This document shows positions 13,697-59,942 of a DNA stretch of 64,000 nt, piece after piece; position 1 is the first letter of the stretch, and every line of letters starts with the position of its first letter. The translations under genes and the position numbers were made by a program. This DNA comes from Acidovorax delafieldii (GTDB lineage Bacteria > Pseudomonadota > Gammaproteobacteria > Burkholderiales > Burkholderiaceae_C): positions 368,878 to 432,877 of the forward strand of contig NZ_VJWE01000013.1 of assembly GCF_007993815.1 (NCBI RefSeq), written 5' to 3'. The notes under the pieces were generated by a model. That model did no database searches, was not told the origin of the DNA, and saw only the letters and a program-made list of their open reading frames with translations.

Positions 13697-13957
13697 GGAG
13701 GCTGTCGAGCATGGGGTTGGCTCTGCGCCACCGCCTGGGGGTGCCAGGCAAGGCGCGGGTGAGGCCGTGTGGCCCAGCCACACAACGAACCCGCAACGCA
13801 GCATGGCGGCCCCAGGCGGCGGCCCGAAGGGTTGTGCGACATAGCACGCAGGCGGCGTTGCCCATGCTCGCTGCACAGCCAGTGCAGCTTGCGCTGGGCG
13901 CCTAGCCTGCATACTCTGTCGCACAACGCAGCGCCAACCCCAAGCCCGACAGCCTCC
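13697..13957. repeat. 261-bp three-way-junction palindromic element E1
   Basis: Outer stem: 13697-13727 and 13927-13957 match as inverted repeats in 28 of 31 positions. Arm A: 13727-13740 pairs with 13810-13823 (13 of 14), capped by GTGTGGC-cca-GCCACAC (13767-13783). Arm B: 13831-13853 pairs with 13905-13927 (20 of 23), capped by CTGCAC-agcca-GTGCAG (13871-13887). The seven-base link between the arms is part of CCCGAAGGGTTG. It occupies nearly the whole gap between the divergent purN and YceH genes, ending two bases before the YceH ATG. Open frames across it are by-products of the palindrome. Confidence 0.8.
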
Positions 13958-13959
13958 TC

Positions 13960-14661
13960 ATGCCCTTCGACCCCACCACCCGTCCCCTGACACCCAACGA
14001 AGCCCGCGTGCTCGCCACCCTGATGGAAAAGGCGCGCACCGTGCCCGACAGCTACCCCATGTCGCTCAACGGCCTGGTCACCGGCTGCAACCAGAAAACC
14101 AGCCGCGACCCGGTGATGAACCTGAGTGACGCCGAGGCGCAGGAGGCGCTGGATTCGCTCAAACTGCTGACGCTGGCGTTTGAGAGCAGCGGCAACCGCA
14201 CCACACGCTGGGAGCACAACTTTCAGCGTGGCGTGGGCGTGCCCGAGCAGTCGGCCGTGCTGCTGGGCTTGCTGATGTTGCGCGGCCCGCAGACGGCGGG
14301 TGAGCTGCGCATCAACGCTGAGCGCTGGTACCGGTTTGCGGACATTTCGTCGGTCGAAGCCTTTCTGGACGAGTTGCAGGAGCGCAGTGCCGAAAAGGGT
14401 GGCCCGCTGGTCGTGCAGCTACCCCGCGCTCCCGGCGCGCGCGAGCAACGCTGGGCGCATTTGATGTGCGGACCGGTGGACACCACCGCCAGCCATGCGC
14501 ACGCAGGCAGTGCGGGCGCCAGCCCATCGCCCGCACTGCAGGCCCGTGTGGACGCCCTGGAGGCCGAAGTGGCAAACCTGCGCAACACCGTGCAGCGCCT
14601 GTGCGCCGAGCTGGGCATTTCCCCTGAGTTCAGTCCAATGTCGCCACCCGGACAGGAATAA
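13960..14661 (+). CDS. YceH family protein (DUF480)
   Basis: A 233-residue protein of the YceH/DUF480 family, which has tandem winged-helix folds and no established role. The family core is recognisable: [20 protein letters not shown] at the start, then [18 protein letters not shown] and [17 protein letters not shown]. The C-terminal 50 residues form an Ala-rich linker and a short coiled coil ([19 protein letters not shown]). It starts at ATG 13960; no good ribosome site is visible because the repeat element E1 ends two bases earlier. It is divergent from purN. Confidence 0.85.
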
Positions 14662-14708
14662 AACGAACGACCGTGCTACAAATGCAGCATCACTAGGAGA
14701 CGCACCGC

Positions 14709-15890
14709 ATGGATCTCGCATTCACCCCCGAAGAGCAGGCCTTTCGCGAAGAGATTCGCGCTTGGGTTCACGCCAATCTGCCCAAAGAAATCTCTCACAA
14801 GGTCCACAACGCCTTGCGCCTGACCCGCGAAGACATGCAGGGCTGGGCCAAGATTCTGGGCAAAAAAGGCTGGCTGGGCTTTGGCTGGCCCAAAGAGTTT
14901 GGCGGCCCGGGCTGGACCGCCGTGCAAAAGCACCTTTTTGAAGAAGAGTGTGCGCTGGCCGGTGCGCCCCGCATCATCCCCTTCGGCCCCGTGATGGTGG
15001 CCCCGGTGATCATGGCGTTCGGCAACGCCGAGCAGCAAAAGCGCTTTTTGCCCGGGATCGCCAGCGGCGAAGTCTGGTGGAGCCAGGGCTATAGCGAACC
15101 TGGTTCGGGCTCGGACCTGGCCAGCGTCAAGACGCGCGCAGAGCGCGTGGGCGACAAGTACATCGTCAACGGCCAAAAGACCTGGACCACCCTGGGCCAG
15201 CATGGCGACTGGATGTTCAACCTGGTGCGCACCAGCACCGAGGGCAAGCCCCAGACCGGCATCTCCTTCCTGCTGCTGGACATGAAGTCCAAAGGCGTGA
15301 CCGTGCGCCCCATCAAGCTGCTGGACGGCGAGTGCGAGGTGAACGAAGTGTTCTTCGACAACGTCGAAGTGCCTGCCGAGAACCTGATCGGCGAAGAGAA
15401 CAAGGGCTGGACCTACGCCAAGCACCTGCTGAGCCACGAGCGCACCAACATAGCCGACGTGAACCGCAGCAAGCGCGAACTGGAACGCCTGAAGCGCATC
15501 GCCAAGACCGAAGGCGTATGGGACGACCTGCGCTTCCGGGACCAGATCGCCCTGCTCGAAGTGGACATCGTCGCCCTGGAAATGCTGGTGCTGCGCGTGC
15601 TGTCCGCCGAGAAGTCGGGCAAGAACTCGCTCGACATCGCGGGCCTGCTCAAGATCAAGGGCAGCGAGATCCAGCAACGCTACGCCGAGCTGATGATGCT
15701 GGCCGCCGGCCCCTTTGCCATGCCCTTCATCGAAGAAGCTATGGAAGCTGGCTGGCAAGGCAATTTCCCCGGCGGCGTCACCGCCAACGCGCCGCTGGCA
15801 TCCACCTACTTCAACCTGCGCAAGACAACCATCTACGGTGGCTCCAACGAAGTGCAGCGCAACATCGTGGCGCAGACCGTTCTGGGCTGA
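14709..15890 (+). CDS. Acyl-CoA dehydrogenase, large subunit-like
   Basis: FAD enzyme that oxidises acyl-CoA to enoyl-CoA. It has 393 residues with the three-domain family pattern: N-terminal helical FTPEEQAFREEIRAWV, the FAD-contact loop WWSQGYSEPGSGSDLAS, a beta domain with VNGQKTWTT, and C-terminal TTIYGGSNEVQRNIVAQTVLG. The length and ending resemble PimC-type large subunits, which work with a smaller partner such as the next gene. It starts at ATG 14709 after AGGAGA. Co-directional with the partner, 129 bp upstream of it. The substrate cannot be told from sequence alone. Confidence 0.9.
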   Translation: MDLAFTPEEQAFREEIRAWVHANLPKEISHKVHNALRLTREDMQGWAKILGKKGWLGFGWPKEFGGPGWTAVQKHLFEEECALAGAPRIIPFGPVMVAPVIMAFGNAEQQKRFLPGIASGEVWWSQGYSEPGSGSDLASVKTRAERVGDKYIVNGQKTWTTLGQHGDWMFNLVRTSTEGKPQTGISFLLLDMKSKGVTVRPIKLLDGECEVNEVFFDNVEVPAENLIGEENKGWTYAKHLLSHERTNIADVNRSKRELERLKRIAKTEGVWDDLRFRDQIALLEVDIVALEMLVLRVLSAEKSGKNSLDIAGLLKIKGSEIQQRYAELMMLAAGPFAMPFIEEAMEAGWQGNFPGGVTANAPLASTYFNLRKTTIYGGSNEVQRNIVAQTVLG

Positions 15891-15936
15891 CGCCCAGTAC
15901 GGTCCGCGCCTTGCGCGACAGGACTGCTCCCCCGTG

Positions 15937-16002
15937 CCCCCTCCGGGAGGGGGTTCCCGATAGAGCTTCGCTGGTTGTTGAGGGCGCCACGGCGCCACAA
16001 CC
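15937..16002 (+). other. Two stem-loops between the acyl-CoA dehydrogenase genes
   Basis: CCCCCTC-cgg-GAGGGGG (15937-15953), then a stem of GGTTGT/ACAACC enclosing GGCGCC-ac-GGCGCC (15973-16002). No T-tract follows, and AAGGAG for the next gene lies directly after. They could set relative expression of the two subunits by mRNA processing; this is inference. Confidence 0.5.
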
Positions 16003-16019
16003 GGCACAAGGAGAGACAA

Positions 16020-17135
16020 ATGGATTTCGATTTTTCTGACGACCAGGAACAACTGCGCGACGCCGTGCGCAAGTGGGTGGACAAGGGCTACACGTTTGAG
16101 CGCCGCCGCGCTGCCGTGGCCGCGGGCGGTTTTGACCGCGCCGCCTGGGGCGAATTGGCCGAGCTGGGCCTGACCGCCCTCACCGTGCCCGAAGCGCATG
16201 ACGGCATGGGCCAGGGCGCCATTGATGCGATGGTCGTGGCCGAAGAACTGGGCCGCGGCATTGTGCTGGAGCCGATTGCCCAAGCCTTCATTGCCAGCAG
16301 CGTGCTGTCGCACTACGCACCGGCCGACGTACAAGGCGCCTGGCTGCCCCGCGTGGCCAGCGGCGAAGCCCTGGTGGTGCTGGCCCAGCAGGAGCGCAAG
16401 GCGCGCTACCGCCTGGACGTTTGCGATGCAAAAGCGGTCAAAGCGCAATCAGGATATGCGGTAACAGCTATCAAAAGCGTAGTGCCCGCTGGCGACAAGG
16501 CCGACGCCTTCATCGTGCCTGCGCAACTCGACGGCAAGATCGCCCTCTTCCTGGTCGAGCGCACGGCCAGCGGCGTGACCACGCAGGGCTACGTCACGCA
16601 AGACGGCAGCCGCGCCGCCGAGGTGCTGCTGGCCAACGCGCCTGCCACGCTCATCACCACCGACGGCCTGGCCGCGCGGGAACTGGCCGTGGACACCGGC
16701 ATTGCCGCCGCCTGCGCCGAAGCCGTGGGCGTGATGGACAAGACCGTGGCCATCACGGTCGAATACATGAACCAGCGCAAGCAGTTTGGCGTGTTCATTG
16801 CCAGCTTCCAGGCGCTGCGCCACCGCGTGGCCGACATGAAGATGCAGCTGGAGCTGGCCCGCTCGATGAGCTACTACGCCAGCCTGAAGCTGGGCGCCCC
16901 CGCCGCCGAACGCCGTGCCGCCATGGCCCGCGCCAAGGTGCAGCTGGGCCAGTCGATGCGCTTTGTCGGACAGCAAGCGGTGCAACTGCACGGTGGCATT
17001 GGCGTGACGGACGAATACATCGTGAGCCACTACTTCAAGAAGCTCACGCAGCTGGAAGTGACTTTTGGCGACACGCTGCACCATCTGGGCGAAGTGTCCG
17101 CCCGCATGCAAGACACGGCGGGCGTGTTTGCCTGA
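16020..17135 (+). CDS. Acyl-CoA dehydrogenase, small subunit-like
   Basis: A 371-residue acyl-CoA dehydrogenase paralogue. N-terminal MDFDFSDDQEQLRDAV and the C-terminal QRKQFGVFIASFQALRHRVA and QLHGGIGVTDEY signatures are clear. The central FAD loop is degenerate: LAQQERKARYRLDV sits where the partner has the GSGSD-type loop. This fits the PimD-like role of a second subunit in a heteromeric enzyme with the upstream gene. The start has an excellent AAGGAGAGACAA site. Residues about 142-155 are encoded by a degenerate copy of the dispersed repeat. Transcription ends at a strong hairpin (17173-17211). Confidence 0.88.
   Translation: MDFDFSDDQEQLRDAVRKWVDKGYTFERRRAAVAAGGFDRAAWGELAELGLTALTVPEAHDGMGQGAIDAMVVAEELGRGIVLEPIAQAFIASSVLSHYAPADVQGAWLPRVASGEALVVLAQQERKARYRLDVCDAKAVKAQSGYAVTAIKSVVPAGDKADAFIVPAQLDGKIALFLVERTASGVTTQGYVTQDGSRAAEVLLANAPATLITTDGLAARELAVDTGIAAACAEAVGVMDKTVAITVEYMNQRKQFGVFIASFQALRHRVADMKMQLELARSMSYYASLKLGAPAAERRAAMARAKVQLGQSMRFVGQQAVQLHGGIGVTDEYIVSHYFKKLTQLEVTFGDTLHHLGEVSARMQDTAGVFA
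16444..16483 (-). repeat. Dispersed repeat, degenerate copy inside a coding gene
   Basis: Contains GCTATCAAAAGCGTAGT preceded by a decayed hairpin module. It is read in frame as AQSGYAVTAIKSVV in the second acyl-CoA dehydrogenase, at a poorly conserved surface region. Confidence 0.45.
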
Positions 17136-17172
17136 TGTGAACTGACGCAGGCGCGTAACACCCGCAAACGAT

Positions 17173-17211
17173 GCTCGTGGATTCCCCAGTCCACGGGCAT
17201 TTTTTCTTTTT
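17173..17211 (+). terminator. Terminator after the acyl-CoA dehydrogenase pair
   Basis: GCTCGTGGA (17173-17181) pairs with TCCACGGGC (17190-17198), one position being a G-U pair, followed by ATTTTTTCTTTTT. The next gene's GGAG site begins immediately after the T-tract. Confidence 0.85.
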
Positions 17212-17223
17212 GGAGACTCCCCC

Positions 17224-18618
17224 ATGAATCACGCATTCCTGTTGCCACGCCGATCCCTCTTGCTGGCAGCCGCTGCGGCCGCCGGTCTGGCGCTGGCAGG
17301 CTGCGCCACCCAGAGCCCCAGCCTGGCAGAAGCACCGCCCATCGTCTTTGTGCATGGCAACGGCGACACCGCCGCGCTGTGGCAGACCACCGTCTGGCGG
17401 TTTGAGTCCAACGGCTGGCCCCGCGAGCGACTGCACGCCATCGACGTGCCTTACCCCCTGTCGCGCGATGAGGACGCCAAGCCCCAGCCGGGCCGCACCT
17501 CGGCAGCAGAGCACATGGCCTACCTCAAGGCCGAAGTGGACAAGGTGCTCAAAGCCACGGGCGCCCGCCAGGTCGTGCTGGTCGGCAACTCGCGCGGCGG
17601 CAATGCCATCCGCAACTACATCTACAACGGGGGCGGCGACAAGACGGTGAGCCACGCGATCCTCGGCGGCACACCCAACCACGGCGTGTGGGCGATACCG
17701 GGGTTCCGAGAAGGCAACGAGTTCTCTGGCACAGGCCCCTTCCTCAAAGCGCTGAATGCCCCCAAGAACGCGGCGGGCGACGAGGTGAGCGGCCCCGTGA
17801 AATGGATGACCATCCGCTCGGACAACAACGACAAGTTCGCCCAGCCCGACGGCCTGTGGATCGGCCAGAAAGGCACGCCCACCAACGTGACCGCCACCGG
17901 CCCCGAACTCAAGGGTGCCACCAACGTGGTGATTCCGCGCATCGACCACCGCGAGACTTCGTACTCCCCCGTTGCGTTTGAAGCCACCTACCGCTTCATC
18001 ACCGGCAAGGCCCCCGCACGCACCGAGATCGCTGCGGAGAAATCCGTAGTGATCAACGGCAAAGTCACGGGCCTGGGGGTGGACTCTGCCGACCCCAAGA
18101 CCGGCAACTTCAGCAACAACCTGCCCCTGGCGGGTGCCCAGCTGGAGGTGTACGCCACTGACTCCGCCACTGGTACTCGCACGGGCCATCCGCTGCTGCG
18201 AAAGACAGTGGGTGCAGATGGCCAATGGGGTCCACTGACGGTTTCACCCGGCGCACCCATCGAGTTCGTGATCACCGCGCCTGGATATGCCACCACCCAC
18301 ATCTACCGCAGCGGCTTTCCGCGCAGTAGTGGCCTCATCCATCTGCGCGCAGAACGCATGGCCGATGCCGACAAGGGCGCCGAGAGCGTCGTGACCTTGA
18401 CCCGCCCGCGCGGCTACCTGGACCCGGCGCGCGACAAGATGCTGCTGGATGGTGCAGTGCCTGCGGGCGTGCCCGCTGGCGCCGGCGTGGCATCTGCCAA
18501 GGTCAAGCCCGCAGGGGGCGTGCGCAGCATTGCGGGCGAATTCAACGGGGAACGGGTGGTGGGGCAGACTTGGCCTGCTGCGCAAGGCCACGTCGTCATG
18601 CTGGAAGTCAGCCAATAA
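17224..18618 (+). CDS. Lipoprotein alpha/beta hydrolase (lipase-like)
   Basis: A 464-residue secreted or membrane-anchored hydrolase. The N-terminus has PRRSLLL then a hydrophobic stretch and the lipobox LALAGC with Cys27, so it is probably a lipoprotein; the twin arginine could also make it a Tat substrate. The oxyanion-side motif IVFVHGNGD is at 40-48 and the nucleophile elbow GNSRGG has Ser123. The histidine is probably in IPRIDHRETSYS. After about residue 270 a second, beta-rich half follows (VVINGKVTGLGV, PLAGAQLEVYAT), like a carbohydrate- or surface-binding module. Esterase activity is likely and the substrate is unknown. GGAG precedes the ATG. Confidence 0.82.
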   Translation: MNHAFLLPRRSLLLAAAAAAGLALAGCATQSPSLAEAPPIVFVHGNGDTAALWQTTVWRFESNGWPRERLHAIDVPYPLSRDEDAKPQPGRTSAAEHMAYLKAEVDKVLKATGARQVVLVGNSRGGNAIRNYIYNGGGDKTVSHAILGGTPNHGVWAIPGFREGNEFSGTGPFLKALNAPKNAAGDEVSGPVKWMTIRSDNNDKFAQPDGLWIGQKGTPTNVTATGPELKGATNVVIPRIDHRETSYSPVAFEATYRFITGKAPARTEIAAEKSVVINGKVTGLGVDSADPKTGNFSNNLPLAGAQLEVYATDSATGTRTGHPLLRKTVGADGQWGPLTVSPGAPIEFVITAPGYATTHIYRSGFPRSSGLIHLRAERMADADKGAESVVTLTRPRGYLDPARDKMLLDGAVPAGVPAGAGVASAKVKPAGGVRSIAGEFNGERVVGQTWPAAQGHVVMLEVSQ

Positions 18619-18645
18619 AAGCAAAAAGCAGCCCGCAGGGGCTGC
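18617..18645 (-). terminator. Terminator for the DUF3617 gene, possibly bidirectional
   Basis: GCAGCCC (18628-18634) pairs with GGGCTGC (18639-18645). On the minus strand it is followed by TTTTTGCTTTT, so it fits the leftward DUF3617 gene. It starts ten bases after the rightward hydrolase stop and may also slow that transcript. Confidence 0.65.
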
Positions 18646-18748
18646 CTCCAAAAGACTGAATGGGCAACACACCCATTGCCCACCGCCTGGCTGCCGACAG
18701 GCCCTTCATTCAAGCAACCAAGTGTGTGGCAAGGGGAGCCAGGCACAT

Positions 18749-19288
18749 TCAGTGTTTGTGTCCCTTGTGGTCGTGATGGTCCTGACGCTCCTCTGCGCGC
18801 CTGCGATCATCGACCACGTTCACCGTGACACCGTTGGGCAAGAGCATGTCGCCGGGCCGCATCGCTGCGCGGCACTCACCCAGCCACCGCCCTTCAAACA
18901 CCTTGGGCGGTGGTGTTTGGGAGGCCATGCTGGGGTATCGAGTTTCCAGACGCCCTTCATAGCGTGACGTCAGGTCACCCTTCAACTCCATGACGGTATC
19001 CACGCGCTGTTCGTGCACATGGCAGGCGGTGCGAATGCGATGTCCTTTTTCCTTGAGCCGCGCAACACCAGGCTTGCCGCAGTTTTCTTGCCCCGGCGCA
19101 ATCGACATCAACGTCAGCGCATCGCTTGCGCGGTCCGTGCACTGCAATACTTTAAGCACCGCAGTATCTGCAGCACCCTCGGGGCGGATAGATACCTCCC
19201 AGAGTCCTGCCTTGCGTGTGGGCAGAGTCTGCGCCCACGCGGCCTGATTCACAACAACAGCCAGGGCCAAGATGGCGAAAGTTTTCAT
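18749..19288 (-). CDS. DUF3617 periplasmic protein
   Basis: A 179-residue protein with a cleavable signal peptide (MKTFAILALAVVVNQAAWA, cut before QTLP). The mature part starts with the DUF3617 hallmark RKAGLWEVSIRPEG and holds four cysteines (LQCTDRAS, GQENCGKP, RTACHVHE, GECRAAM) that probably pair. The C-terminal tail is rich in Asp, His and Lys (RQDHHDHKGHKH), a possible metal-binding end. The family function is unknown. It lies downstream of the IPTL-CTERM gene on the same strand but is separated by a terminator, so is likely expressed independently. Confidence 0.82.
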   Translation of the reverse strand: MKTFAILALAVVVNQAAWAQTLPTRKAGLWEVSIRPEGAADTAVLKVLQCTDRASDALTLMSIAPGQENCGKPGVARLKEKGHRIRTACHVHEQRVDTVMELKGDLTSRYEGRLETRYPSMASQTPPPKVFEGRWLGECRAAMRPGDMLLPNGVTVNVVDDRRRAEERQDHHDHKGHKH

Positions 19289-19316
19289 ACTTGCATCCGA
19301 GTGCGCTGCGGACAGA

Positions 19317-19354
19317 CCAAAAACCAAATGCCCACCTGCGATCGAGGTGGGCAT
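19317..19354 (-). terminator. Terminator of the IPTL-CTERM gene
   Basis: ATGCCCACCT (19328-19337) pairs perfectly with AGGTGGGCAT (19345-19354), and the minus strand continues TTTGGTTTTTGG. It lies 33 bp beyond the stop of the leftward surface protein. Confidence 0.8.
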
Positions 19355-19386
19355 CGGGCATGCCGCAGCAATGAAGAATAGACGGA

Positions 19387-21804
19387 TCAGTGCGTGAGTC
19401 TGCGACCTGCAGGCAGTCGCTGCAACCCCAGAGCAGCAAGCGCCAGGGCCATCACGATGAGCGCCCACTCCGACAAGGTGGGAATGCTGGAGGCGGACAC
19501 GAACGAAGCAACCACTGTGCAACTGCCTGCAATCGCATTCGTGGTGAAGGTATTCCCCACCAGACTTCCCGGGCAAGAGGTTCCACTTGTGGAAATACGC
19601 GCCACGTAGCCCGCATTGGGCGTCAGGGTGAACGTGTGTTGCGAACCCAGTGCCACCGTCTGTGCACCAGCCGCCAATATGCCACCGTTACCACCATTGA
19701 CGGATGAGGTCACGGTGGCCGTCGCGTTGGTGAATGCCACGTTGAAAGTGCAATCAGCATTCACGGGGGATATGGTGTACTGGTTGCCAGAAAGCACACC
19801 AGGGCAGTTCCCGGTGATCAGCGGAGCATAGGTCGGATCGGGGTTGATGGTGTATGTCACCGTGGAGCCAGATACCACCGTTGTAGGTGTACCCGGCGTG
19901 ATGGTGCCGTTAGCGCCCACCACTGGTGTGACCGTACGAACCAGCGCAAAAGTAGCAATGACGTTGGCACTAGCGCCCGACACGTTGACAGTGCAAGTCC
20001 CCGTTCCCGAGCATCCCGCCCCCGACCAACCGGTGAAAACAGAGCCCGGTGCAGCGACTGCAGACAGAATCGTCGTGGTTCCATTTGCCACGCTCATGGA
20101 TGCAGATGTGCACGCAGCTGCACAGCTGAGCCCTGTTGGAACGCTGGTCACGGTGCCAGTACCCGTGCCACTTTTCGAAAGGCCTACTGCGTACAGGGTG
20201 CCTACGGCATTGGTATCCGCTGCGGCGTTGTTGGCTGCATTGCTGTCCGTGACACCCGCGGGAGCCGCGACATTCACCGTGGTGGATGTCGTGGTTCCTG
20301 CGGCACCTGCAGTACCTGTGACCGTGTATGTGACGGAGGCGCCGACCGGCAATGAGGGGGCGTCCGTGATGGAGTTCGCCCCGCTAGCGGCACCACAAGC
20401 TGCGCCAGAGTTGGCCACACAGGTCCATGCGACCGCGCCCAATCCGGACACAGTTTGCGAGACGGGCGCAGCCACCACAGCGGTAGGTCCGTTGTTGGTC
20501 ACAACCACGGTGTAGGTGACTGTGCTGCCCGCCGCCACAGCTGAGACGCCTCCATCAGAAATGGTGATACCCAGATCGGTCAAAGAACTTGCCAACGGCA
20601 CCACCTGGGTCTGGAACAGAGGCCCCAGGAACGCACTGGTGCCGTCAGATGCGATCTTGTAGTTGCCGTTGTTGACCACGTTGGTCGGGCTGGAGGTACT
20701 CGCACCCGACGGAATCGTGACTGTCACCGTGAACGAACCACTGGCCCCGTTGTTGAGGGTACCGAAATTGCAAACCACCGGCGCATCTGCCGTCCCCACG
20801 GTCGGCAGCGAGCAAGTACCGCCATTCGGCTGGATGGACACAAAGGTGGTATCCAGGTTGTTGCCCGATTTGGGCATCACTGCTGTCACCGTCGTGTTGT
20901 TGGATATCACCCCACTGTTATTGGTGTAGATGTAGGTGTAAGTAATCTGGTCACCCGGCTTGGCCGTGGTGGGCCCCACTGCGGTAACAGCCAGACCTTG
21001 AATGAACGCGCCGACGGAATCGAGGTACAAATGACCTTCGTGCCCGCTGGGCTGGCACCCGGCGACAATCACTTCTATCTTGACGGAGTCCCCTACGTCC
21101 AGGAAACCATTGCCGGGCGCGATATCAAAACCCTGCCAATCGGTGAACTTGTAGTCGCCCACGCCACTTTGCCAGGGAATGCCGGGCTGATTCGAGAAAT
21201 TAAAAGTGGTGAACAGCGTAGTTCCCTTGGTGACATTGGTCACCTGAATGAAGAAGTACGGCTGCAAGTTGTCAGCGTGGGCGGGTGCACGCAAAACGGG
21301 TGCGGCGGCAAAACGCAAGTGGATTTTGCCGTCAGAAGGATCCACATCCGCCAGCGTCATCGTGGCTGTCTGCTCGATCGAACTGGCCTTGTCCTGGTTA
21401 GAGCCGGGATCAGCCCCGAACTGGTTGTGAACGCGCGCGACAGCATTGCCCCAACGAGGAAATTTCAACAACCCATTGGTGTTGGTGTCGTTCAGACTCT
21501 CCGAGGAGCCGCGCAGAACCGCAGACAGATCAAACGTGGATACGGGCGCCGACAAGTTCAGATGCGACTTTTGCGTCGGTGGAAATGTGGTGATCCCCCC
21601 CGTCTGCAAGTTGTAGGACTGTTTGGTCCATCCCGCAAAATCAGTGGAGTCTTCAAACCCCCCGTTGACCACACCAGCCATAGCAGCCTGGGTCATCATC
21701 ACACCGCCAAGCAACGCAACTGCGGCGCTCCGCAATACGTTAGAAAAATCGCGCAGCAGCCCGCGACCGCGTGCAACCTGCACCGGCATCCAGTCGTCCT
21801 TCAT
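19387..21804 (-). CDS. IPTL-CTERM surface protein with DUF11-like domains
   Basis: An 805-residue exported protein. A signal peptide lies near residues 24-43 (SAAVALLGGVMMTQAAMA). The next ~240 residues resemble a PEP-CTERM-type ligand domain (GVVNGGFEDSTDFAGWT). Two DUF11/CARDB-like beta domains follow (KPGDQITYTYIYTNNSG; AAGSTVTYTVVVTNNGP), then cysteine-bearing InlB-type beta repeats (GSVFTGWSGAGCSGTGTC). It ends with the sorting signal IPTLSEW, a hydrophobic helix and basic tail GRR, the tripartite mark of exosortase-processed proteins. The start could be 21804 or the ATG at 21789, which has the better AAGGA site. AT-richer and Thr/Ser/Gly-rich compared with neighbours. A probable envelope or biofilm protein. 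Confidence 0.88.
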   Translation of the reverse strand: MKDDWMPVQVARGRGLLRDFSNVLRSAAVALLGGVMMTQAAMAGVVNGGFEDSTDFAGWTKQSYNLQTGGITTFPPTQKSHLNLSAPVSTFDLSAVLRGSSESLNDTNTNGLLKFPRWGNAVARVHNQFGADPGSNQDKASSIEQTATMTLADVDPSDGKIHLRFAAAPVLRAPAHADNLQPYFFIQVTNVTKGTTLFTTFNFSNQPGIPWQSGVGDYKFTDWQGFDIAPGNGFLDVGDSVKIEVIVAGCQPSGHEGHLYLDSVGAFIQGLAVTAVGPTTAKPGDQITYTYIYTNNSGVISNNTTVTAVMPKSGNNLDTTFVSIQPNGGTCSLPTVGTADAPVVCNFGTLNNGASGSFTVTVTIPSGASTSSPTNVVNNGNYKIASDGTSAFLGPLFQTQVVPLASSLTDLGITISDGGVSAVAAGSTVTYTVVVTNNGPTAVVAAPVSQTVSGLGAVAWTCVANSGAACGAASGANSITDAPSLPVGASVTYTVTGTAGAAGTTTSTTVNVAAPAGVTDSNAANNAAADTNAVGTLYAVGLSKSGTGTGTVTSVPTGLSCAAACTSASMSVANGTTTILSAVAAPGSVFTGWSGAGCSGTGTCTVNVSGASANVIATFALVRTVTPVVGANGTITPGTPTTVVSGSTVTYTINPDPTYAPLITGNCPGVLSGNQYTISPVNADCTFNVAFTNATATVTSSVNGGNGGILAAGAQTVALGSQHTFTLTPNAGYVARISTSGTSCPGSLVGNTFTTNAIAGSCTVVASFVSASSIPTLSEWALIVMALALAALGLQRLPAGRRLTH

Positions 21805-21954
21805 GGAATTCGCTCTTTCGTTTCTTGTTTTCGATCAGGCCACCCAGTTGCAGGCGCCCCTCCCAATTGCCCCCGACGGCTAACGCTGAGCTAGCCCATT
21901 CCCGGAGCCACGGCCTCTAAAAAGGGGCCGCCACGGGAGCATAGCGAGATTCAA

Positions 21955-21986
21955 TTAACTATTGATACATGTTTGACAATAGTTAA
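21955..21986. promoter_or_regulatory. 32-bp operator-like inverted repeat upstream of the IPTL-CTERM gene
   Basis: TTAACTATTG and CAATAGTTAA are perfect ten-base arms separated by 12 bases. It lies about 150 bp upstream of the surface protein start in an AT-rich tract, and the right arm overlaps TTGTCA on the minus strand, a possible -35 box. It would suit a dimeric regulator. Confidence 0.5.
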
Positions 21987-22495
21987 CATTCAATCCCGCA
22001 GATAACAACACCCTGACCGGTGCACACACACAGAGCAGGCGGACAAGCGCTGGTGGACAGGGTGAAACCCCTTCACGCACGGCGCTCGATACTTCCAGGC
22101 CGGAAGCCATCCGAACGCCTTAGCAGGGCAGACGCGAAACCTGGCAAGCGCCTGCCATCCGCCGCGCTCCTTTTGAGATGGAAGCCATAGCGCCCCCTAC
22201 AACCTCAAGCCCCGACCGAGGCGTCGCGAACGCGTCGGATGTACAGGTATCAGCGTGCTGCATTGACGCGCGACCGGGTCCGCATATCGATGTCTCGGAA
22301 TCCGCATGCAGCCTTTTCAGGAGGGTGCACTGTCATAAAACGCAGACAACACGATGCAGGCATTGGTTCGACTGGGTGAGCTCCTGCCGGTTGCGCCCGA
22401 CCAGGCCCCAGGTTTGCTCGATTGACTCGAAAAATGGGCTGGTACCGATTGGGGGTGGCAAGTGAAATCACCCAGAGCACAGGTTATGACGACCC

Positions 22496-22513: not shown

Positions 22514-22605
22514 ATGGCAAGCAAATCTCTCTGAAACGAAACACTTACAAGAACAGCTACCCACGGCAGCCACGTCAGCGGCTGCAAGGACGCGCGAAAG
22601 GAGCC

Positions 22606-52459: not shown

Positions 52460-52606
52460 GCGCCGATGATGCCCGATGCAGCCTGCAAAGGCTGCGGTCG
52501 CAGGGGACGGTGGGCCCGTGTAGCCCTGCATGTGCATTTGCCCGCAAACCGTGCTACTGTCATTTGCGTGCGCCAGGCCCTGGCGTGTACGAGCAAAGGT
52601 GACAGG

Positions 52607-53554: not shown

Positions 53555-53598
53555 CCGCACACCGCCCCACCACTCCACTCGTCATCGCAAGGAGCCCC

Positions 53599-54615
53599 AT
53601 GTCATCCAGCACGTCGCCCAATGCATCGAACGCCACCACCGCCACGCTGATGGAACAGGTGCTCTACGAGGTCAAACGCGTAGTGGTCGGGCAGGACCGC
53701 TTTCTGGAGCGCGTCATGGTCGCCATACTGGCCCAGGGCCACCTGCTGGTCGAGGGCGTGCCGGGCCTGGCCAAGACGCTGACGGTGAAAACACTCGCCA
53801 GCACCATCCAGGGCAGCTTCAAGCGCATCCAGTTCACGCCCGACCTGGTGCCCGCCGACCTGGTGGGCACGCGCATGTACAACCAAAAAGCCGGCGAGTT
53901 CAGCACCACGCTGGGCCCGGTCTTTACCCACCTGCTGCTGGCCGACGAAATCAACCGCGCGCCCGCCAAGGTGCAGAGCGCGCTGCTGGAGGTGATGCAG
54001 GAGCGCCAGGTGACCATTGCAGGCGAAACCCACAAGGTGCCTGAGCCCTTCCTGGTGATGGCCACCCAGAACCCCATCGAGACCGAAGGCACCTACGCGC
54101 TGCCCGAGGCGCAGGTGGACCGTTTCATGATGAAGGTGCTGCTGGGCTACCCCACCGAGGAAGAAGAATTCGTGATCGCCCAGCGCGCGCTCGATGTGCC
54201 CGTGCAGGTGCTACCCGTGGCCACCACGGCGCAGCTGGCGGCATTGCAGGCCGAATGCCGCACCGTGTATGTGGACCCGTCGATGCTGCAATACGCCGTG
54301 AAGCTGGTGGCAGCCACCCGCGAGCCCGCACGACATGGCCTGAAGGACCTGGCCGGCTACATCAGCTGCGGCGCCAGCCCGCGCGCCACCATTGCCCTGG
54401 CCGAGGGGGCTCAGGCCCTGGCCATGCTGCGCGGGCGCAACTACGTGCTGCCCGAAGACATGACCGATCTGGCCGCCGATGTGCTGCGCCATCGCGTGGC
54501 GCTGTCGTACGAAGCGCTGTCCGACGGGCTGGATGCCGACGCACTCATCCAGCGCATCATGGCCAAGATCCCGGCACCAGCACGTCCCTTGCATCACGAG
54601 CAAAAAGCTGCTTGA
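53599..54615 (+). CDS. MoxR-family AAA+ ATPase
   Basis: A 338-residue AAA+ chaperone-type ATPase. Walker A GVPGLAKT and Walker B LLLADEINRAP are intact, and the family sensor MATQNPIETEGTYALPEAQ follows. AAGGAG precedes the ATG at 53599. It is the first of the classic moxR-DUF58-VWA trio, which is thought to insert metal ions or fold partner complexes through MIDAS-bearing VWA proteins. The nearby protease may be part of the same envelope system. Confidence 0.95.
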   Translation: MSSSTSPNASNATTATLMEQVLYEVKRVVVGQDRFLERVMVAILAQGHLLVEGVPGLAKTLTVKTLASTIQGSFKRIQFTPDLVPADLVGTRMYNQKAGEFSTTLGPVFTHLLLADEINRAPAKVQSALLEVMQERQVTIAGETHKVPEPFLVMATQNPIETEGTYALPEAQVDRFMMKVLLGYPTEEEEFVIAQRALDVPVQVLPVATTAQLAALQAECRTVYVDPSMLQYAVKLVAATREPARHGLKDLAGYISCGASPRATIALAEGAQALAMLRGRNYVLPEDMTDLAADVLRHRVALSYEALSDGLDADALIQRIMAKIPAPARPLHHEQKAA

Positions 54616-54627
54616 GGTGTCATCGCC

Positions 54628-55665
54628 ATGAACAGCAAGCCGCCTGCAACCTCCGCCACGGTGCACACCCTGCCCACATTGCCCGGGCAGGCCGACCGGC
54701 TGCTGCGCGAGCTGGAGTGGAAGGTGATCCGCCGCCTGGACGGCCTGCTGCAGGGCGACTACCGCACGCTGATGCGCGGCAGCGGCCTGGACCTGACCGA
54801 CCTGCGCGAATACCAGCCGCACGACGACGTACGCCACATCGACTGGAACGTGACCGCGCGGCTGAACACCCCCCATGTGCGCGTGTTCACCGAAGACCGC
54901 GAAATGTCGGCCTGGTTCCTGCTGGACCTGAGCCCGTCCATCAGCTTCGGCCCCACAGGCCACGCCAAGCGCGACATCCTGACCGGCTTTGTGGCCGTGC
55001 TTTCGCGCCTGCTTACCCGCCACGGCAACCGAGTGGGCGCCGTGCTCTACGGCGGTGCCAGTCCGAAGGCCGAACGCGCAGTGGATGCCGTACTGCCCCC
55101 GCGCAGCAGCCGCGCCCATGTGCTGCACCTGGTGCACAAACTGCTGCCGTCCAAAACCCCGGTGCCACCGCACAAGACGGGTGGCGGCGCCACCGAACTG
55201 CACCGGCTGCTGCAGACCGGCCTGGCCACGCTCAAGCGCCGGTCCACCGTATTTGTGGTGTCCGACTTCATCAGCGCGCCCGGCTGGGAAAAGCCCCTGG
55301 CCCAACTGGCCCAGCGGCATGACGTGGTGGCCGTGCGCCTGCTCGACCCGCTGGAGCTGGAGCTGCCCGAAGTGGGCCTGGTCACGCTGCGCGATGCCGA
55401 AAGCGGCGAGCAACTGCAGGTGGACACGCACGACGCAGGCTTTCGCCGCCGCTTTGCCCAGTTGGCCGCCGACCGCGAGGCGGCGCTGCGCGAGGGCCTG
55501 ACCCGCGCGGGCGCCGACACGCTGGAGCTGTGCACCGACGACGATCTGGTCGACGCCCTGCTGCGCTTCATGGACCTGCGCCAGCGCCGGGTGCGGGCGC
55601 ACAGCAACCCCCTCGTCCCCGCATCGGCATCCGCAGGCCCTGCCGCAACGGCTGCCGCCGCCTGA
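54628..55665 (+). CDS. DUF58 protein
   Basis: A 345-residue protein with the DUF58 hallmark LREYQPHDDVRHIDWNVTAR (residues about 67-86), after a short N-terminal extension. The second half is VWA-like (FLLDLSPSISFG) but lacks a full DxSxS MIDAS. It starts at ATG 54628, 12 bp after moxR, with GAGGTG upstream. The partner of MoxR in this operon; the molecular role of DUF58 is not established. Confidence 0.92.
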   Translation: MNSKPPATSATVHTLPTLPGQADRLLRELEWKVIRRLDGLLQGDYRTLMRGSGLDLTDLREYQPHDDVRHIDWNVTARLNTPHVRVFTEDREMSAWFLLDLSPSISFGPTGHAKRDILTGFVAVLSRLLTRHGNRVGAVLYGGASPKAERAVDAVLPPRSSRAHVLHLVHKLLPSKTPVPPHKTGGGATELHRLLQTGLATLKRRSTVFVVSDFISAPGWEKPLAQLAQRHDVVAVRLLDPLELELPEVGLVTLRDAESGEQLQVDTHDAGFRRRFAQLAADREAALREGLTRAGADTLELCTDDDLVDALLRFMDLRQRRVRAHSNPLVPASASAGPAATAAAA

Positions 55666-55732
55666 CCGATCAATGGATTGATTCATTAATCACCCGCCGC
55701 ACACGCTGTACTCGCCACCAAGGACACACACC

Positions 55733-56779
55733 ATGGTTTTTCTCTGGCCCACCCTGCTCTGGCTGCTGCTGGCTGTGCCCCTCTTGGTACTGCTGTACTG
55801 GTGGCTGCTGCACCGGCGCAAGAAAACAGCGCTGACCTACTCCAGCCTGTCCCTGGTGCGCGAGGCCATGGGCCCGGGCCAGCACCTGCGCCGCCACATC
55901 CCACCCGCGCTGTTCCTGCTGGCCCTGGTGGCACTGCTGCTGGCCGCCGCGCGCCCGCTGGCCGTCATCACCCTGCCCTCGCAGGACCAGACCATCATGC
56001 TGGCCATGGACGTGTCGGGCAGCATGCGCGCCGCCGACGTGGAGCCCGACCGCATCACCGCCGCCCAGAACGCCGCCAAGGCCTTCATTGCCGACCTGCC
56101 GCGCCATGTGCGCGTGGGCATCGTGGCCTTTGCGGGCAGCGCCCAGCTGGCCCAGCTGCCCACCCAGAGCCGCGAAGACCTGGTGAAAGCCATCGACAGC
56201 TTCCAGCTGCAGCGCGGCACGGCCACGGGCAACGGCATCATGCTGTCGCTGGCCACGATCTTTCCCGATGCGGGTATCGACATCGCCGCTCTGGGCGGCC
56301 GCCAGGCCATGCGCCCGAAGCCCATCGAAGAGCTGGGCAAGCAGCAGGACCCCGCCAAGACGTTCACGCCCGTAGCCCCAGGCTCGTACAACTCGGCCGC
56401 CATCATCATGCTGACGGACGGTCAGCGCACCACAGGCGTGGACCCACTGGAAGCCGCCAAGTGGGCGGCCGACCGGGGGGTGCGGGTGTACACGGTGGGG
56501 GTGGGCACGGTGCAGGGCGAGACCATTGGCTTTGAGGGCTGGTCGATGCGGGTACGGCTGGACGAAGAAACCCTGAAGGCCGTGGCTGCGCGGACCAATG
56601 CCGAATACTTTCATGCGGCGACGGCGGCAGACTTGAAGAAGGTGTACGAGACGCTGAGCTCGCGGCTGACGGTGGAGAAGAAGGAGACGGAGATTTCTTC
56701 TTTACTGGCGTTGTTGGGAGCGGTGCTGGCGTTGGTGGCGGCGGGGTTGTCGGTGTGGTGGTATGGGCGGGTGATGTGA
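55733..56779 (+). CDS. VWA-domain (BatA-like) membrane protein
   Basis: A 348-residue inner-membrane protein. Two N-terminal helices (LWLLLAVPLLVLLYWWLL; LFLLALVALLLAAARPLAV) precede a von Willebrand A domain with the metal site DVSGSMRA at 93-100, and a final C-terminal helix (ALLGAVLALVAAGLSVWW) closes it. AAGGA precedes the ATG. It ends the moxR operon; BatB or BatD relatives are absent. The 880-bp structured element begins four bases after its stop codon. Confidence 0.92.
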   Translation: MVFLWPTLLWLLLAVPLLVLLYWWLLHRRKKTALTYSSLSLVREAMGPGQHLRRHIPPALFLLALVALLLAAARPLAVITLPSQDQTIMLAMDVSGSMRAADVEPDRITAAQNAAKAFIADLPRHVRVGIVAFAGSAQLAQLPTQSREDLVKAIDSFQLQRGTATGNGIMLSLATIFPDAGIDIAALGGRQAMRPKPIEELGKQQDPAKTFTPVAPGSYNSAAIIMLTDGQRTTGVDPLEAAKWAADRGVRVYTVGVGTVQGETIGFEGWSMRVRLDEETLKAVAARTNAEYFHAATAADLKKVYETLSSRLTVEKKETEISSLLALLGAVLALVAAGLSVWWYGRVM

Positions 56780-56782
56780 TTT

Positions 56783-56846
56783 TTTTGGGGTGATTTTGGC
56801 TGGATGCGCTAGTGGGATATGCGCTGGCAGCTATGCTTTTTGAAGC
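56783..56846 (-). repeat. Dispersed repeat, left outer arm of E3
   Basis: Tail TTTTGGGGTGATTTTGGCTG, hairpin module GCGCTAGTGGGATATGCGC and AT module GCTATGCTTTTTGAAGC. It starts four bases after the VWA gene. Confidence 0.75.
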
Positions 56847-57598
56847 ACTCTCCCTCCGTGCAAAGGGCTGTTTGCCTGATTAACGGCATGCCTTGATGAA
56901 GGGCGGAGGCCGGGAGTCGCCCGGCAGGCGAGGTACTTTTCTTTGCTTCGCCAAAGAAAAGTACCCAAAAGAAAGACGACCCCACTGTCTGCGTCCCCTG
57001 CGCTTCGCTACGGGGAAACCTGCGGTGCTCGGGTTTGGCGGGGTCTCGCTCAACTCGCGCCGCTGCGCGTCGCTCAGACACACGCGAGCCCTGATCCGCC
57101 AAACCCTGCGCTCCTCGGCGCATCCACAGGGGCACGGGGAGCTGAACATACACACGGGCCATCGCTGCGCTCGGCCCCGAATCGCGGGCGCAAGCGCCTC
57201 GCGCTGCGCAGCCTGGGCCGAGCGCAGCAATGGCCCGAATGGATGTCCGGCTGTTCGGTTGTTTGGATGTTCGGCTGTCCACCCCCCTGCTGGCTGCGCC
57301 TGCGGCGGGGCGGTTGCGGGGTGAGCATGGGCGTCGGAGCGCCCATGCCTCGTGCACTGACTCGCCGTGGATGTCTGAACGAAGCTGCAACGCAGCGCAG
57401 TGAGTTCCACGGCGCACCCCACGACCGCGCCGCCGCAGGTTTGCCCCCACGCACCGCGTGGGGGTCGCAGGCTGGGGGTCGCCTTTTCTTTGGTGACTTT
57501 CTTTTGGCGAAGCAAAAGAAAGTTACTCGCTCGCCGGGCGACTCCCGGCCTCCGCCTTCAACCCAGGCATGCGATCCAATCAGCAACCACAAGAAAAC

Positions 57599-57662
57599 GC
57601 TACGAAATCAATAGCTACCACCACATATTCCACTAGCGCATCCAGCCAAAATCACCCCAAAA
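57599..57662 (+). repeat. Dispersed repeat, right outer arm of E3
   Basis: AT module GCTACGAAATCAATAGC, then the hairpin module and tail in the opposite orientation to the left arm. The last 11 bases overlap the lolD 3' end and supply its final codons and stop. Confidence 0.75.
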
Positions 57663-58353
57663 CCCCAGACACCAGCCTCATCACCCGGTCACACCGGGCC
57701 GCCAGCGACTCATCGTGCGTCACCATCACAAATGCGGTGCCCTGATCCCGCGCCAACTGCAGCATCAAGTCAAACACCCCGTCAGCCGTACTCCGGTCCA
57801 GATTGCCCGTAGGTTCATCCGCCAGCACGCAAGCAGGCCGCGTCACCAACGCCCGCGCAATCGCCACCCGCTGACGCTCACCGCCCGACAGCTCGGCCGG
57901 CCGGTGCATCAGCCGCTCCTTCAAACCGACTGACGCCAGCACCCGCTCCGCCTCCGCATGGCACTGGGCCAACGGCAGGCGGCGGATGCGCAGCGGCATG
58001 GCCACGTTGTCCAGCGCACTGAACTCCGGCAGCAGGTGATGGAACTGGTAGATAAACCCCAGGTGCTGGTTGCGCAGCTGCCCCTGGCGCTCCGCCGACA
58101 GCGACGACATCTCCTCGCCCTTCAGGCGCACCGTGCCCGCCGTGGGTGCATCCAGCCCGCCCAGCAGGTGCAGCAAGGTGCTCTTGCCCGAGCCCGAGGC
58201 GCCTACGATCGCCAGCGTTTCGCCTGCATGGATCTGCAGGTCCACGCCCTTGAGCACGGTCACATCCAGGCGGCCTTCGGTAAAGCGTTTGGTCAGGCCC
58301 TTGGCTTCCAGCACCACCGGGTGGCTGTTGGTATAGGGGGTGGGGTTACTCAT
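57652..58353 (-). CDS. lolD: Lipoprotein-releasing ABC transporter ATPase
   Basis: ATPase of the LolCDE complex, which extracts lipoproteins from the inner membrane. It has 233 residues. Walker [10 protein letters not shown], signature LSGGERQR, and Walker [13 protein letters not shown] are intact, and the LolD pattern [14 protein letters not shown] is present. Its ATG overlaps the lolC stop by eight bases. The last four residues, GVLG, are encoded by the outer arm of the E3 repeat. Confidence 0.95.
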
Positions 58354-59599
58354 AACGCAGCGCCTCGGCAGGGTTCACACGGCTGGCGCGCCAGCTGGGG
58401 TACAGGGTGGCCACAAAGGCCAGCACCAGCGAGATGACCGCAATGGGCACGATGTCGCTGCTCTGCGGCTCGCTGGGCATCTTGCTGATGAGGTAGATGT
58501 CCTTGGGCAAAAAGCTCGCGTTCAGCGCGCGCTCGATGGCCGGCACGATCACATCGATGTTGAACGCGATGCCAAGGCCCAGCAGCAGGCCGACCAGCGT
58601 ACCGATCACGCCCACCATCGCGCCCTGCACCACAAAGATGCCCATGATGCTTTTGGGGCTGGCGCCCAGCGTGCGCAGGATGGCGATGTCCGCGCGCTTG
58701 TCGGTCACCGTCATCACCAGCGTGGAGACCAGGTTGAACGCAGCCACGGCCACGATGAGCGTGAGGATGATGAACATCATGCGTTTTTCCAGCTGCACGG
58801 CGGCGAACCAGGTGCGGTTCTGCTGCGTCCAGTCGCGGATCAGTAGCTGGCCGCTCAGGGACTGCGCCAGTTGCTGCGCCACCTCGCGGGCCTGGTGCAG
58901 GTCCTTGAGCTTGAGGCGTACACCCGTGGGGCCTTCCAGGCGGAAGATGCGCTGCGCGTCCTCATGGTGCAGCAGCACCAGGGCCGAGTCGTATTCGTAG
59001 TGGCCGGAGTCAAACGTGCCCGCCACCGTCATCTGCTTGAGGCGCGGCACCACGCCTGCCGGCGTCACCTGGCCGGCGGGCGCTATCAGCGTCACCGGGT
59101 CGCCCACCCGCACGCCCAGGGCACGGGCCAGCTCGCCCCCCAGCACCACGCGGAATTCGCCAGGCACCAGCAGGTTCAGCGTTTTCTCATTGGTGGCAGC
59201 CAGGTCGGTCACCGCCCCTTCCAGGGCCGGGTCGATGCCGCGCACCAGTGCGCCCTTCATGTCTTCGCCACGCGCCAGCAGGGCCTGGGCCGCTACAAAA
59301 GGTGCAGCCCCGATCACATTCGGGTTTTTCTTGGCCTCGGCCAGGGTGAGCGCCGGGTCGGGCAGTGCGGCCCCCAGGGGCGCAAAGATCTCGATGTGCG
59401 AGACCACGCTGAGCATGCGGTCGCGCACGTCCTTTTGAAAGCCGTTCATCACCGACAGCACGATGATCAGCGCCGCCACCCCCAGCGCAATGCCCAGCAT
59501 GGACACGCCCGAGATGAACGAGATGAAGCCATTGCGCCGCGTGGCGCGGCCCGCGCGCGTGTAGCGCCAGCCCAGGGCCAGTTCGTAGGGAATTTGCAT
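58346..59599 (-). CDS. lolC: Lipoprotein-releasing ABC transporter membrane subunit
   Basis: A 417-residue MacB/FtsX-fold permease. The N-terminal [14 protein letters not shown] and the following [20 protein letters not shown] start the first helix; a periplasmic domain of about 220 residues comes next; three further helices end with [18 protein letters not shown], the LolC/E signature. Only one membrane subunit is present, so it may serve as LolF-like homodimer or pair with a LolE elsewhere. It forms an operon with lolD. The gap upstream is filled by repeat element E2; the ATG at 59599 has only a weak ribosome site. Confidence 0.93.
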
Positions 59600-59672
59600 G
59601 GATTAGGAAAGAAGGGCCTGTACGGTGCGGAATGCACGCTACGGGACGGGCCGATTGTGGCATCCCGGACAA

Positions 59673-59942
59673 TAGAGCGAGTGAAACACTTTTACATACC
59701 CACGTTGGGCCTCCAGGCCAGTGATCGCAAGGCGCGGGCCGCCGCCAAGGCTGGACGCCTTGGCAAGGTCCGCAACGCCGCGAGCGCTGGCCTGGAGGCC
59801 CAACCCTTCGGGAAAGCCGGGGAAAGGCCCGGCCACTGCGTTGCAGCCCGCTTGCGGTATCCCAACCGCTGCGCGTCCTGCGCCTTGTTGCCGGGCCTTT
59901 CCCCGGTTTTCGTGGGCACGTAAAAGTGTTTCACTCGCTCTA
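59673..59942. repeat. 270-bp three-way-junction palindromic element E2
   Basis: Outer stem: 59673-59704 and 59911-59942 are inverted repeats in 30 of 32 positions. Arm A: GTTGGGCCTCCAGGCCAG (59704-59721) pairs perfectly with 59787-59804, capped by CCAAGGC-tggac-GCCTTGG (59745-59763). Arm B: 59817-59833 pairs perfectly with 59890-59906. The link between arms includes CAACCCTTCGGG (59801-59812). It fills the divergent gap of lolC and the RpfE-like gene, ending three bases before the latter's ATG. Gap bases 59600-59672 show nothing else. Confidence 0.85.

Follow-up and report, generated by a model that had tools for sequence, protein, structure and literature searches.

Two inserted hairpin elements of Acidovorax delafieldii belong to a multi-phylum repeat family that probably includes the Correia element

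Introduction

Correia elements (Correia repeat enclosed elements, CREE, or NEMIS) were first described in the 1980s and have been treated as a peculiarity of Neisseria. An IHF site and promoters at the ends are among their traits. In the excerpts available from the literature, they are described as unique to that genus (PMC5039591), they carry inverted terminal repeats and a target duplication without any coding capacity (PMC2649163), and RNase III acts on their hairpin in Neisseria (PMC2649163, PMC10969869). Another group of repeats, the beta-proteobacterial repeat element (BRE), was found through small RNAs in Bordetella and the Comamonadaceae, and Polaromonas sp. JS666 has as many as 29 of them (PMC3110155). 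BRE units resemble the arms described below in being about 90 bp long, GC-rich, and mostly intergenic, but they differ by their description (one of text rather than of compared sequences), as the excerpt available from the same paper presents them as tandem and reports no inverted ends or core. The pneumococcal RUP element (107 bp) has TA at its ends and a proposed movement in trans by an insertion sequence (IS), IS630-Spn1, which is similar to the family discussed here, but its ends resemble those of the resident IS according to the text available from PMC2229807, and no such resemblance was found for our family. MITEs of Polaromonas and the Chunjie MITEs of Geobacter (178-235 bp) are likewise multi-copy inverted-repeat elements, a likeness drawn from the partial description in PMC10969869. 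Our literature search found no statement that repeats of the type reported here, Correia, and BRE form one bacteria-wide family, nothing relevant on the core sequence or on MITEs in Comamonadaceae or Acidovorax, and only one review on MITEs in Polaromonas.

Here we describe two elements, E1 and E2, in a stretch of 64,000 nucleotides of A. delafieldii DNA (the window). The initial annotation had suggested that they represent an undescribed structured element class; the structure and its covariation hold, but "undescribed" is too strong, as the insertions are of the MITE type and both core and layout match Correia. The elements belong to a Correia-type MITE superfamily rather than to an unknown kind. 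We consider it probable that E1 and E2 are inserted copies, moved in trans, of a non-coding repeat that occurs in multiple phyla and probably includes Correia, and that its core hairpin would act as a folded single strand. Correia/NEMIS and probably BRE are relatives already described.

Results and Discussion

Architecture of E1 and E2

E1 and E2 are real inverted-repeat hairpin elements, each composed of an outer stem and two inverted arms that meet at a CCC-TTC-GGG joint (Table 1). Folded alone as DNA, E1 reached -104.5 kcal/mol (z -8.2) and E2 -117.4 kcal/mol (z -14.9), with 0 of 200 shuffles matching either. The top tile in a fold scan of the window (473 tiles of 270 nt, in 135-nt steps) lay over E2 at -116.3, while the next outside E2 was at -90.8; E1 was not framed whole by any tile and is therefore absent from the twelve best. 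We also searched the window with model R2, which comprises 74 arms of 57 loci and excludes Neisseria titles, Correia ends, Correia 17-mers, and the window sequence itself. At E≤10 it recovered exactly the four arms of E1 and E2, with E-values (rough, owing to short calibration) from 5e-12 to 1.5e-16, and no other match. None of 4227 Rfam families matched the window at its gathering score, and the sub-threshold matches, which were weak and mostly to microRNA families, were disregarded.

Table 1. Positions of E1, E2, and adjoining motifs in the window
Feature	Position	Strand	Details
E1, two-arm hairpin element	13696..13958	none	outer inverted repeat 13696-13727 / 13927-13958, 32 nt, 91% complementary
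E1 arm A	13727..13823	+	core AAGGCGC...GCAACGC 13750-13799; model R2 E 1.6e-13
E1 linker mini-hairpin CCC-GAA-GGG	13823..13831	none	
E1 arm B	about 13832-13928 (alternatively 13835..13924)	-	core on minus strand, TAGGCGC variant; model R2 E 2.2e-14
E2, two-arm hairpin element	59673..59942	none	outer inverted repeat 59673-59704 / 59911-59942, 94% complementary
E2 arm A	59704..59804	+	101 bp; core 59729-59778; model R2 E 1.5e-16
E2 linker mini-hairpin CCC-TTC-GGG	59804..59812	none	
E2 arm B	59812..59911	-	100 bp; core on minus strand, 59838-59886; model R2 E 5.2e-12
Conserved CGGATTATC motif directly left of E1	13686..13694	+	most relatives with an empty site retain GATTATC or AATTATC
Conserved GATTGTGGCATCCCGGACAATAG motif, E2 at its TA/TAG end	59653..59675	+	GTGGCATCCCGGACAATAG in 26/27 gaps

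The arm lengths proposed initially agree with ours for both A arms (97 bp in E1 and 101 bp in E2), but arm B of E2, given as 90 bp, is ten bases longer. A 12-mer said to be common to both elements in inverted orientation is indeed exact, on the minus strand at 13823-13834 in E1 and on the plus strand at 59801-59812 in E2. It consists of the stem end CAAC and the CCCTTCGGG mini-hairpin, and its inversion reflects only the opposite orientation of the two copies. Taken alone the 12-mer is weak evidence; at one mismatch or fewer, at least two matches occurred in 4 of 100 shuffles.

Insertion and mobilization

Both elements are insertions, because most of the relatives measured have a short empty gap in their place: 25 of 28 at the E1 site, where gap lengths are approximate, and 25 of 26 at the E2 site. 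Given these mostly empty sites, the two likely inserted independently of each other. Independent origins had been named beforehand as grounds for rejecting a common structure, but the common structure stands alongside them.

Across the family, 26 of 58 flanks were equal over 3 bp, compared to a shuffled mean of 9.5 and a maximum of 19 in 2000 shuffles. TNA accounted for 25 of these 26 and is duplicated by the commonest end type of the family. Windows of 2 bp gave no excess of equal flanks (4 vs 6.6 shuffled), no clear duplication was seen at E1, and there was at most TA or TAG at E2. A symmetric TA at the ends was dropped as a general rule, having been found in only 4/26, 1/25, and 10/23 elements, and the TNA test took its place. 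At least six end types can be distinguished by eye in the A. delafieldii genome. Within the family, ends differ in their sites: GARCCTGTTCA occurs with TNA, GGCAACGCTGAATAAG with CTAA, and GTG.. in CTAG sites. The family has the traits of prokaryotic MITEs in that its members are short, non-coding, and multi-copy, have inverted-repeat ends, correspond to empty sites in relatives, and show target duplication at the family level. TNA and CTAA duplications together with inverted ends are marks of DDE transposition. The elements were also considered as ends of an autonomous IS, but the pair in question (L159), 1 kb apart, consists of two separate one-arm copies.

A search of the A. delafieldii genome for two transposase families, PF01609 and PF13358, returned no matches, and the ends of IS630 elements from this genus do not resemble the GARC type seen locally. 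Mobilization by IS5 alone, our first guess from the ends, was rejected since PF01609 is absent from this genome and CTAG sites in distant members suggest IS630-like ends as well. The family is likely moved in trans by the transposases of resident insertion sequences, and the different end types may be recognized by different transposase families, which we take to be of the IS5 and IS630 types. If the ends are read by different transposases, the core would be a module retained for some purpose other than marking the element for a transposase.

A constant core within covarying stems

The family has a fixed core, AAGGCGC-(hairpin)-GCAACGC, within stems that vary freely but remain paired. Both sides of a pair had changed in 736 cells of a 98-row arm alignment, compared to 182 when shuffled, and the score was 0.711 vs 0.155, with slid partners at 0.130 or less; this alignment was fitted to the structure, and three of its rows (L098, L103, and L113) are the opposite strand of arms already counted. 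A 9-arm alignment had both-side changes in 19 of 29 pairs (46 cells vs 14.3 shuffled), and the three pairs adjoining the core were 84-98% paired among 51 representatives of <70% identity in an alignment that was not structure-fitted. The early claims that E1 and E2 have a common architecture with differing stems, and that these stems covary, are thus strongly borne out. The core helix GCG:CGC had no both-side changes in the 98 rows, and it is therefore kept by sequence. Compensation at fixed sites is thin: E1 and its counterpart in one relative (G015) differ by four double-changed pairs, of which three were kept (0.39 expected, P 5e-5) and three lie in one cluster, and comparison of E1 with G007 and of E2 with G033 gave no double-changed pairs.

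On the core strand of the outer repeats of one-arm copies, G.T mismatches exceeded A.C mismatches by 83 to 12 (51 elements), and by 48 to 9 among 32 representatives (20 vs 3 by sign). Arms outside the one-arm class showed little or no such excess (60 vs 51, or 24 vs 9 among representatives), and apical stems had none (7 vs 8). This asymmetry in one-arm copies hints at selection on a single strand. Host mRNA as the source of the bias is unsupported by the two-arm stems and by gene orientation, as the core strand was not co-oriented with neighboring genes (11 sense tandem, 16 antisense tandem, 10 convergent, and 4 divergent; n=41, crude gene calls). The most likely step is that the transcribed core strand would fold and be bound or cut, as by RNase III in Neisseria. 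Such binding or cutting would let the element occupy promoters and leaders, and E1 and E2 would each come to serve as a structured 5' leader for the gene that follows on the right (the DUF480 gene and the pre-recJ gene).

A broader version of this idea, which we put forward only tentatively, is that there is one ancient, structure-first superfamily including Correia, in which a conserved cellular partner reads the folded core strand and the ends have been swapped to use the TA- and TNA-targeting transposases of the host. It is rather unlikely, but deserves serious weight, that the elements are ordinary MITEs whose fold has no function, in which the stems stay matched through template switching in replication (quasi-palindrome correction, each arm serving to rewrite its partner) while the core hitch-hikes by common descent. 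The clustered double changes at the E1 site speak for this reading, as do the lack of orientation bias relative to genes and two copies on Streptomycetaceae plasmids (L419 and L420) that form a near-perfect hairpin without the core. However, the core is kept across phyla while the stems differ (a conservation partly set by the search pattern used to collect the loci), the stems compensate while the core helix never does, and the rewriting of arms does not predict the core-strand excess of G.T in one-arm copies. We regard as quite improbable a structure-guided transposon, the mobilizing enzyme of which would recognize the hairpin core in single-stranded DNA and not the terminal sequence. The transposases of IS200/IS605 and REP elements bind hairpins (REP/BIME repeats being short GTAG-type palindromes with a Y1 transposase, RAYT), and by this analogy such an enzyme could account for a constant core with exchangeable ends and for strand-specific tolerance of G.T, but the inverted ends and the TNA and CTAA duplications fit DDE transposition.

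Relationship to Correia elements

The reading that we prefer, a repeat moved in trans whose core would work as a single strand in folded form, also bears on Correia, probably a single branch within a much larger family. Model R2 matched 14 of the 15 loci that were found by Correia ends alone, all from presumed Neisseria genomes, at full length and with rough E-values of 1.7e-6 to 1.1e-3. By this model, the Correia core hairpin, CAAGGCG..GCAACGCC with a CGCAG..CAAG loop, is present in these 14 loci and in all four arms of the window, as one hairpin with the identical order CAAGGCG..CGCAG..CAAG..GCAACGCC. Correia differs in that its 105-bp form has ends TATAGTGGATTAA and one short arm, while E1 and E2 are 263-270 bp long with two arms and other ends. 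The notion of Correia as a two-arm element was dropped, as it aligns to the model as a single arm, and the Correia end repeat (ATAGTGGATTAA..) gave no paired-end pattern match in the A. delafieldii genome. ERIC/IRU is also a long hairpin repeat, in which AAGGCG and GCGAACGCAG follow in the same order, but by the model test it was rejected as a member, reaching only E 8.9 with filters off. Convergence, whereby any GC-rich hairpin with AAGGCG..AACGC would score, is very unlikely: although the match comes from about 20 core bases plus pairing, and a 71-bp form (L270) and a longer form (L289) were unmatched, the 14 loci keep the motif order including the internal loop, and false matches were found neither in the window (E≤10) nor in 14 IS630 loci (48 kb, E≤1).

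Gene neighbors and distribution

The elements were initially thought to abut start codons, and this is accurate for E1, which on the right leaves 1 nt to the start codon of DUF480 (13960) and on the left lies 19 nt away from that of the formyltransferase (13676), as well as for the right end of E2, which stops 3 nt short of the following start codon (59946), but not for the left side of E2, which is 73 nt from a lolC-like start. By eye, the CGGATTATC motif beside E1 and the GATTGTGGCATCCCGGACAATAG motif at E2 may be -10-like; a consensus promoter scan found none at either. A terminator or sigma-70 promoter within E1 or E2 was dismissed, as the consensus scan of these stretches was empty.

All 36 Acidovorax genomes searched carry the family, with 8 to at least 71 arms each, and 103 of 299 Pseudomonadota genomes had matches. 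Of the 120 loci listed, a lower bound on the total, 27 are from eight other phyla, mostly in metagenome bins, and the isolates outside Pseudomonadota are Streptomycetaceae records only. If the core is common to about a third of the sampled Pseudomonadota genomes and to other phyla, its function and its mover become testable in harmless laboratory species, and many unannotated hairpins near genes would share one explanation. For a transposon that lacks its own enzyme, keeping the core constant while exchanging the ends would, moreover, be an unusual route of persistence. Phage records had no family match and plasmid records had none to E2; the few plasmid records with the family comprise one from Comamonas and, with a Streptomyces query, eight from Streptomycetaceae, and three matches were found in viral contigs.

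Structure and covariation of E1 and E2

E1 and E2 are built as the initial annotation had described them, as two inverted hairpin arms within an outer stem, apart from small corrections of length: the whole repeats measure 263 and 270 bp, respectively, and arm B of E2 is about 100 bp rather than the shorter length first given. The 12-mer reported in both is exact and inverted between them, and it consists of a stem end and a CCC-TTC-GGG mini-hairpin; the arms of other two-arm copies are linked by this mini-hairpin as well. Two layouts recur among the copies: a single arm enclosed by inverted ends, and a pair of inverted arms with the mini-hairpin between them. Both E1 and E2 fold far better than shuffles, and the best-folding of 473 window tiles covers E2.

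Coordinates of features in the window and in fetched loci
Feature	Sequence	Positions
E1	window	13696-13958
E2	window	59673-59942
Conserved stretch GTGGCATCCCGGACAATAG	window	59653-59675
Gene right of E2, upstream of recJ	window	59946-60896
One-arm copy, Omnitrophota bin	L159	3290-3400
ORF enclosing that copy	L159	2331-3938
ERIC, E. coli	L416	160-280

The covariation claimed for the stems was strong by three routes: the nine arms of our first covariance model (R1), 98 structure-fitted rows (three of which are opposite strands of arms already counted), and pattern-anchored arms, for which no alignment was fitted (116 arms, with 51 representatives at <70% identity). The core of the family is AAGGCGC-[hairpin]-GCAACGC. 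In the 98-row alignment none of the three core pairs is changed on both sides, against 736 such cells in the stems; thus, it is the sequence that is maintained in the core and the pairing that is maintained in the stems. Evidence for compensation at fixed sites is limited to one comparison, E1 in the window's genome against E1 in genome G015, where three of four double-changed pairs were kept (P 5e-5); three clustered changes there could be one template switch.

Copies in the genome and in other bacteria

AAGGCGC-N(15-45)-GCAACGC occurs 30 times in the window's genome, against 6 for a reversed control, and R1 finds 32 places at E<=1, some being second arms of one element. An enclosing repeat was found for 26 of the 30 loci: 10 span 162-169 bp, 12 span 263-289 bp (with E1 counted twice) and the remaining 4 differ in size from both groups. 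Across named genomes, TGCAAGGCGC-N(25-45)-GCAACGCNGCAGA found at least 120 loci. Leaving aside 16 core places closer than 150 nt to a locus end, an inverted repeat encloses 116 of the remaining 120 in these loci. Counted once each, these repeats number at least 106: 42 measuring 160-178 bp, 47 in the range 257-293 bp and 17 of other sizes. By title, the 120 loci among the matches listed comprise 90 from Pseudomonadota, 27 from eight other phyla and 3 unassigned; the non-Pseudomonadota records among them are metagenome bins, except for four Streptomyces loci. Contamination is possible in one Desulfovibrionaceae bin (L146, L224), whose copies have Comamonadaceae-type ends. In Streptantibioticus, a complete plasmid carries a copy (L418) that matches R2, a later structure model without window sequence, at E 7e-8.

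R1 matched 46 of 60 genomes (36/36 genus members and 10/24 others). At E<=1e-4, R2 matched 103 of 299 Pseudomonadota genomes in 48 of 154 genera, the mostly small genomes of one family (f76) being heavily represented; copy numbers per genome are floors, as only 14 candidates were scored in each.

Copies on Streptomycetaceae plasmids (L419, L420) keep a near-perfect long hairpin in which the AAGGCGC core is absent; folded as RNA, stretches of 230 nt from them reach -177 and -178 kcal/mol. In an Omnitrophota bin, a long ORF runs uninterrupted through a one-arm copy, possibly a protein insertion like the Rickettsia palindromic elements.

Insertion sites

For E2 we compared 30 loci from 39 matching genomes (three without one gene), and the gap is 346 bp in the window's genome and 345 bp in genome G033; of the 26 relatives measured, the other 25 have gaps of 75-89 bp. 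At the E1 locus (30 loci, one without the left gene), the gap is 15-38 bp in 25 of 28 relatives; the element is present in G007 and G015, and G029 has a remnant-like 177 bp. Past insertion of both elements is shown by these empty sites. E2 in G033 (L308) occupies the same site with 4 substitutions, the neighbouring protein is only 83% identical, and nearer measured relatives are without E2; the stretch may have been transferred, or one site may have been used repeatedly.

The insertions lie directly after the conserved motifs CGGATTATC and GATTGTGGCATCCCGGACAATA, which by eye resemble -10 regions a few bases upstream of the start codon; no promoter was called at either by a consensus scan. In a GC-rich genome, TA-containing targets would favour such places. 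The stretch GTGGCATCCCGGACAATAG, upstream of the gene that precedes recJ and identical in 26 of 27 compared gaps, is conserved far above the rest of the E2 gap. The gene right of E2 has a match in 39 of 40 genus genomes and no Pfam family at E<=0.001.

Ends and mobilization

A three-base duplication is seen for elements with GARC-type ends: equal 3-base flanks occur in 26 of 58, against 9.5 in shuffles (highest of 2000, 19), and 25 of the 26 are TNA. One copy (L033) has CTAA on either side, and distant members are located in CTAG. We take TNA and YTAR to be consistent with groups of the IS5 family, and CTAG plus a TA duplication with IS630. Neither PF01609 nor PF13358 had a match in the window's genome; PF13358 is found in 16 of 40 genus genomes. 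The genus's IS630-type elements have ends such as TA-GTGTCCTGAG, close to those of a Planctomycetota copy (L199) but unlike the local ends.

We propose that E1 and E2 are copies of a MITE superfamily, probably moved in trans, in which the ends are exchangeable and the core hairpin stays constant and is predicted to act as a folded single strand; the mover and any partner of the core are putative. At both sites, the gene to the right would have the element as its leader.

Strand asymmetry

In one-arm elements, with G.T and A.C both treated as mismatches, the strand reading the core as written has 83 G.T against 12 A.C (48 against 9 in representatives). Pairs anchored at the core give 79 against 14, mostly from one T.G-rich position, and structure-fitted alignments give 98 against 46 and 101 against 23. 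These sequence counts point to a single-stranded form of the core strand, RNA or DNA. Against this, arms not classed as one-arm have 60 G.T and 51 A.C, apical stems have 7 and 8, and core strands show no co-orientation with neighbouring genes; strand-biased mutation could also produce the excess.

Comparison with Correia elements

The Neisseria Correia element contains CAAGGCGAGGCAACGCC. Among 300 genomes of the order, this 17-mer was present in 2, which belong to one genus. A search by the Correia ends alone gives 7 elements in one of these two, 85 in the other and none in seven further genomes. R2 was built from 74 arms of 57 loci among those listed in the TGCAAGGCGC/GCAACGCNGCAGA scan. These 57 loci are free of Neisseria titles, Correia ends and the 17-mer, and one of them is from an Acidovorax, perhaps of the window's genus. 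R2 matched 14 of 15 ends-found Correia loci at full length (E 1.7e-6 to 1.1e-3), the sample being the 15 of 92 ends-found elements with loci plus three core-found ones, of which it matches one. It did not match a 71-bp form (L270) or a longer form (L289), and L357, also unmatched, has a short deletion. With R1 the alignment was already weakly visible, in six matches at E 0.04-0.42.

PMC2649163 calls the Correia mobilising mechanism undetermined and describes the hairpin as bound or cut by RNase III, and PMC5039591 calls the elements unique to Neisseria. No statement of a wider family appeared in the literature searched, most subscription papers being outside its reach. In an ERIC of E. coli, AAGGCG and GCGAACGCAG follow one another as they do in the core; its membership is not supported (R2 E 8.9). 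Two loci of genome G297 (L353, L355) represent a second Correia subtype, which shares the common ends and CAAGGCG..GCAACGCC and has different yet paired inner stems.
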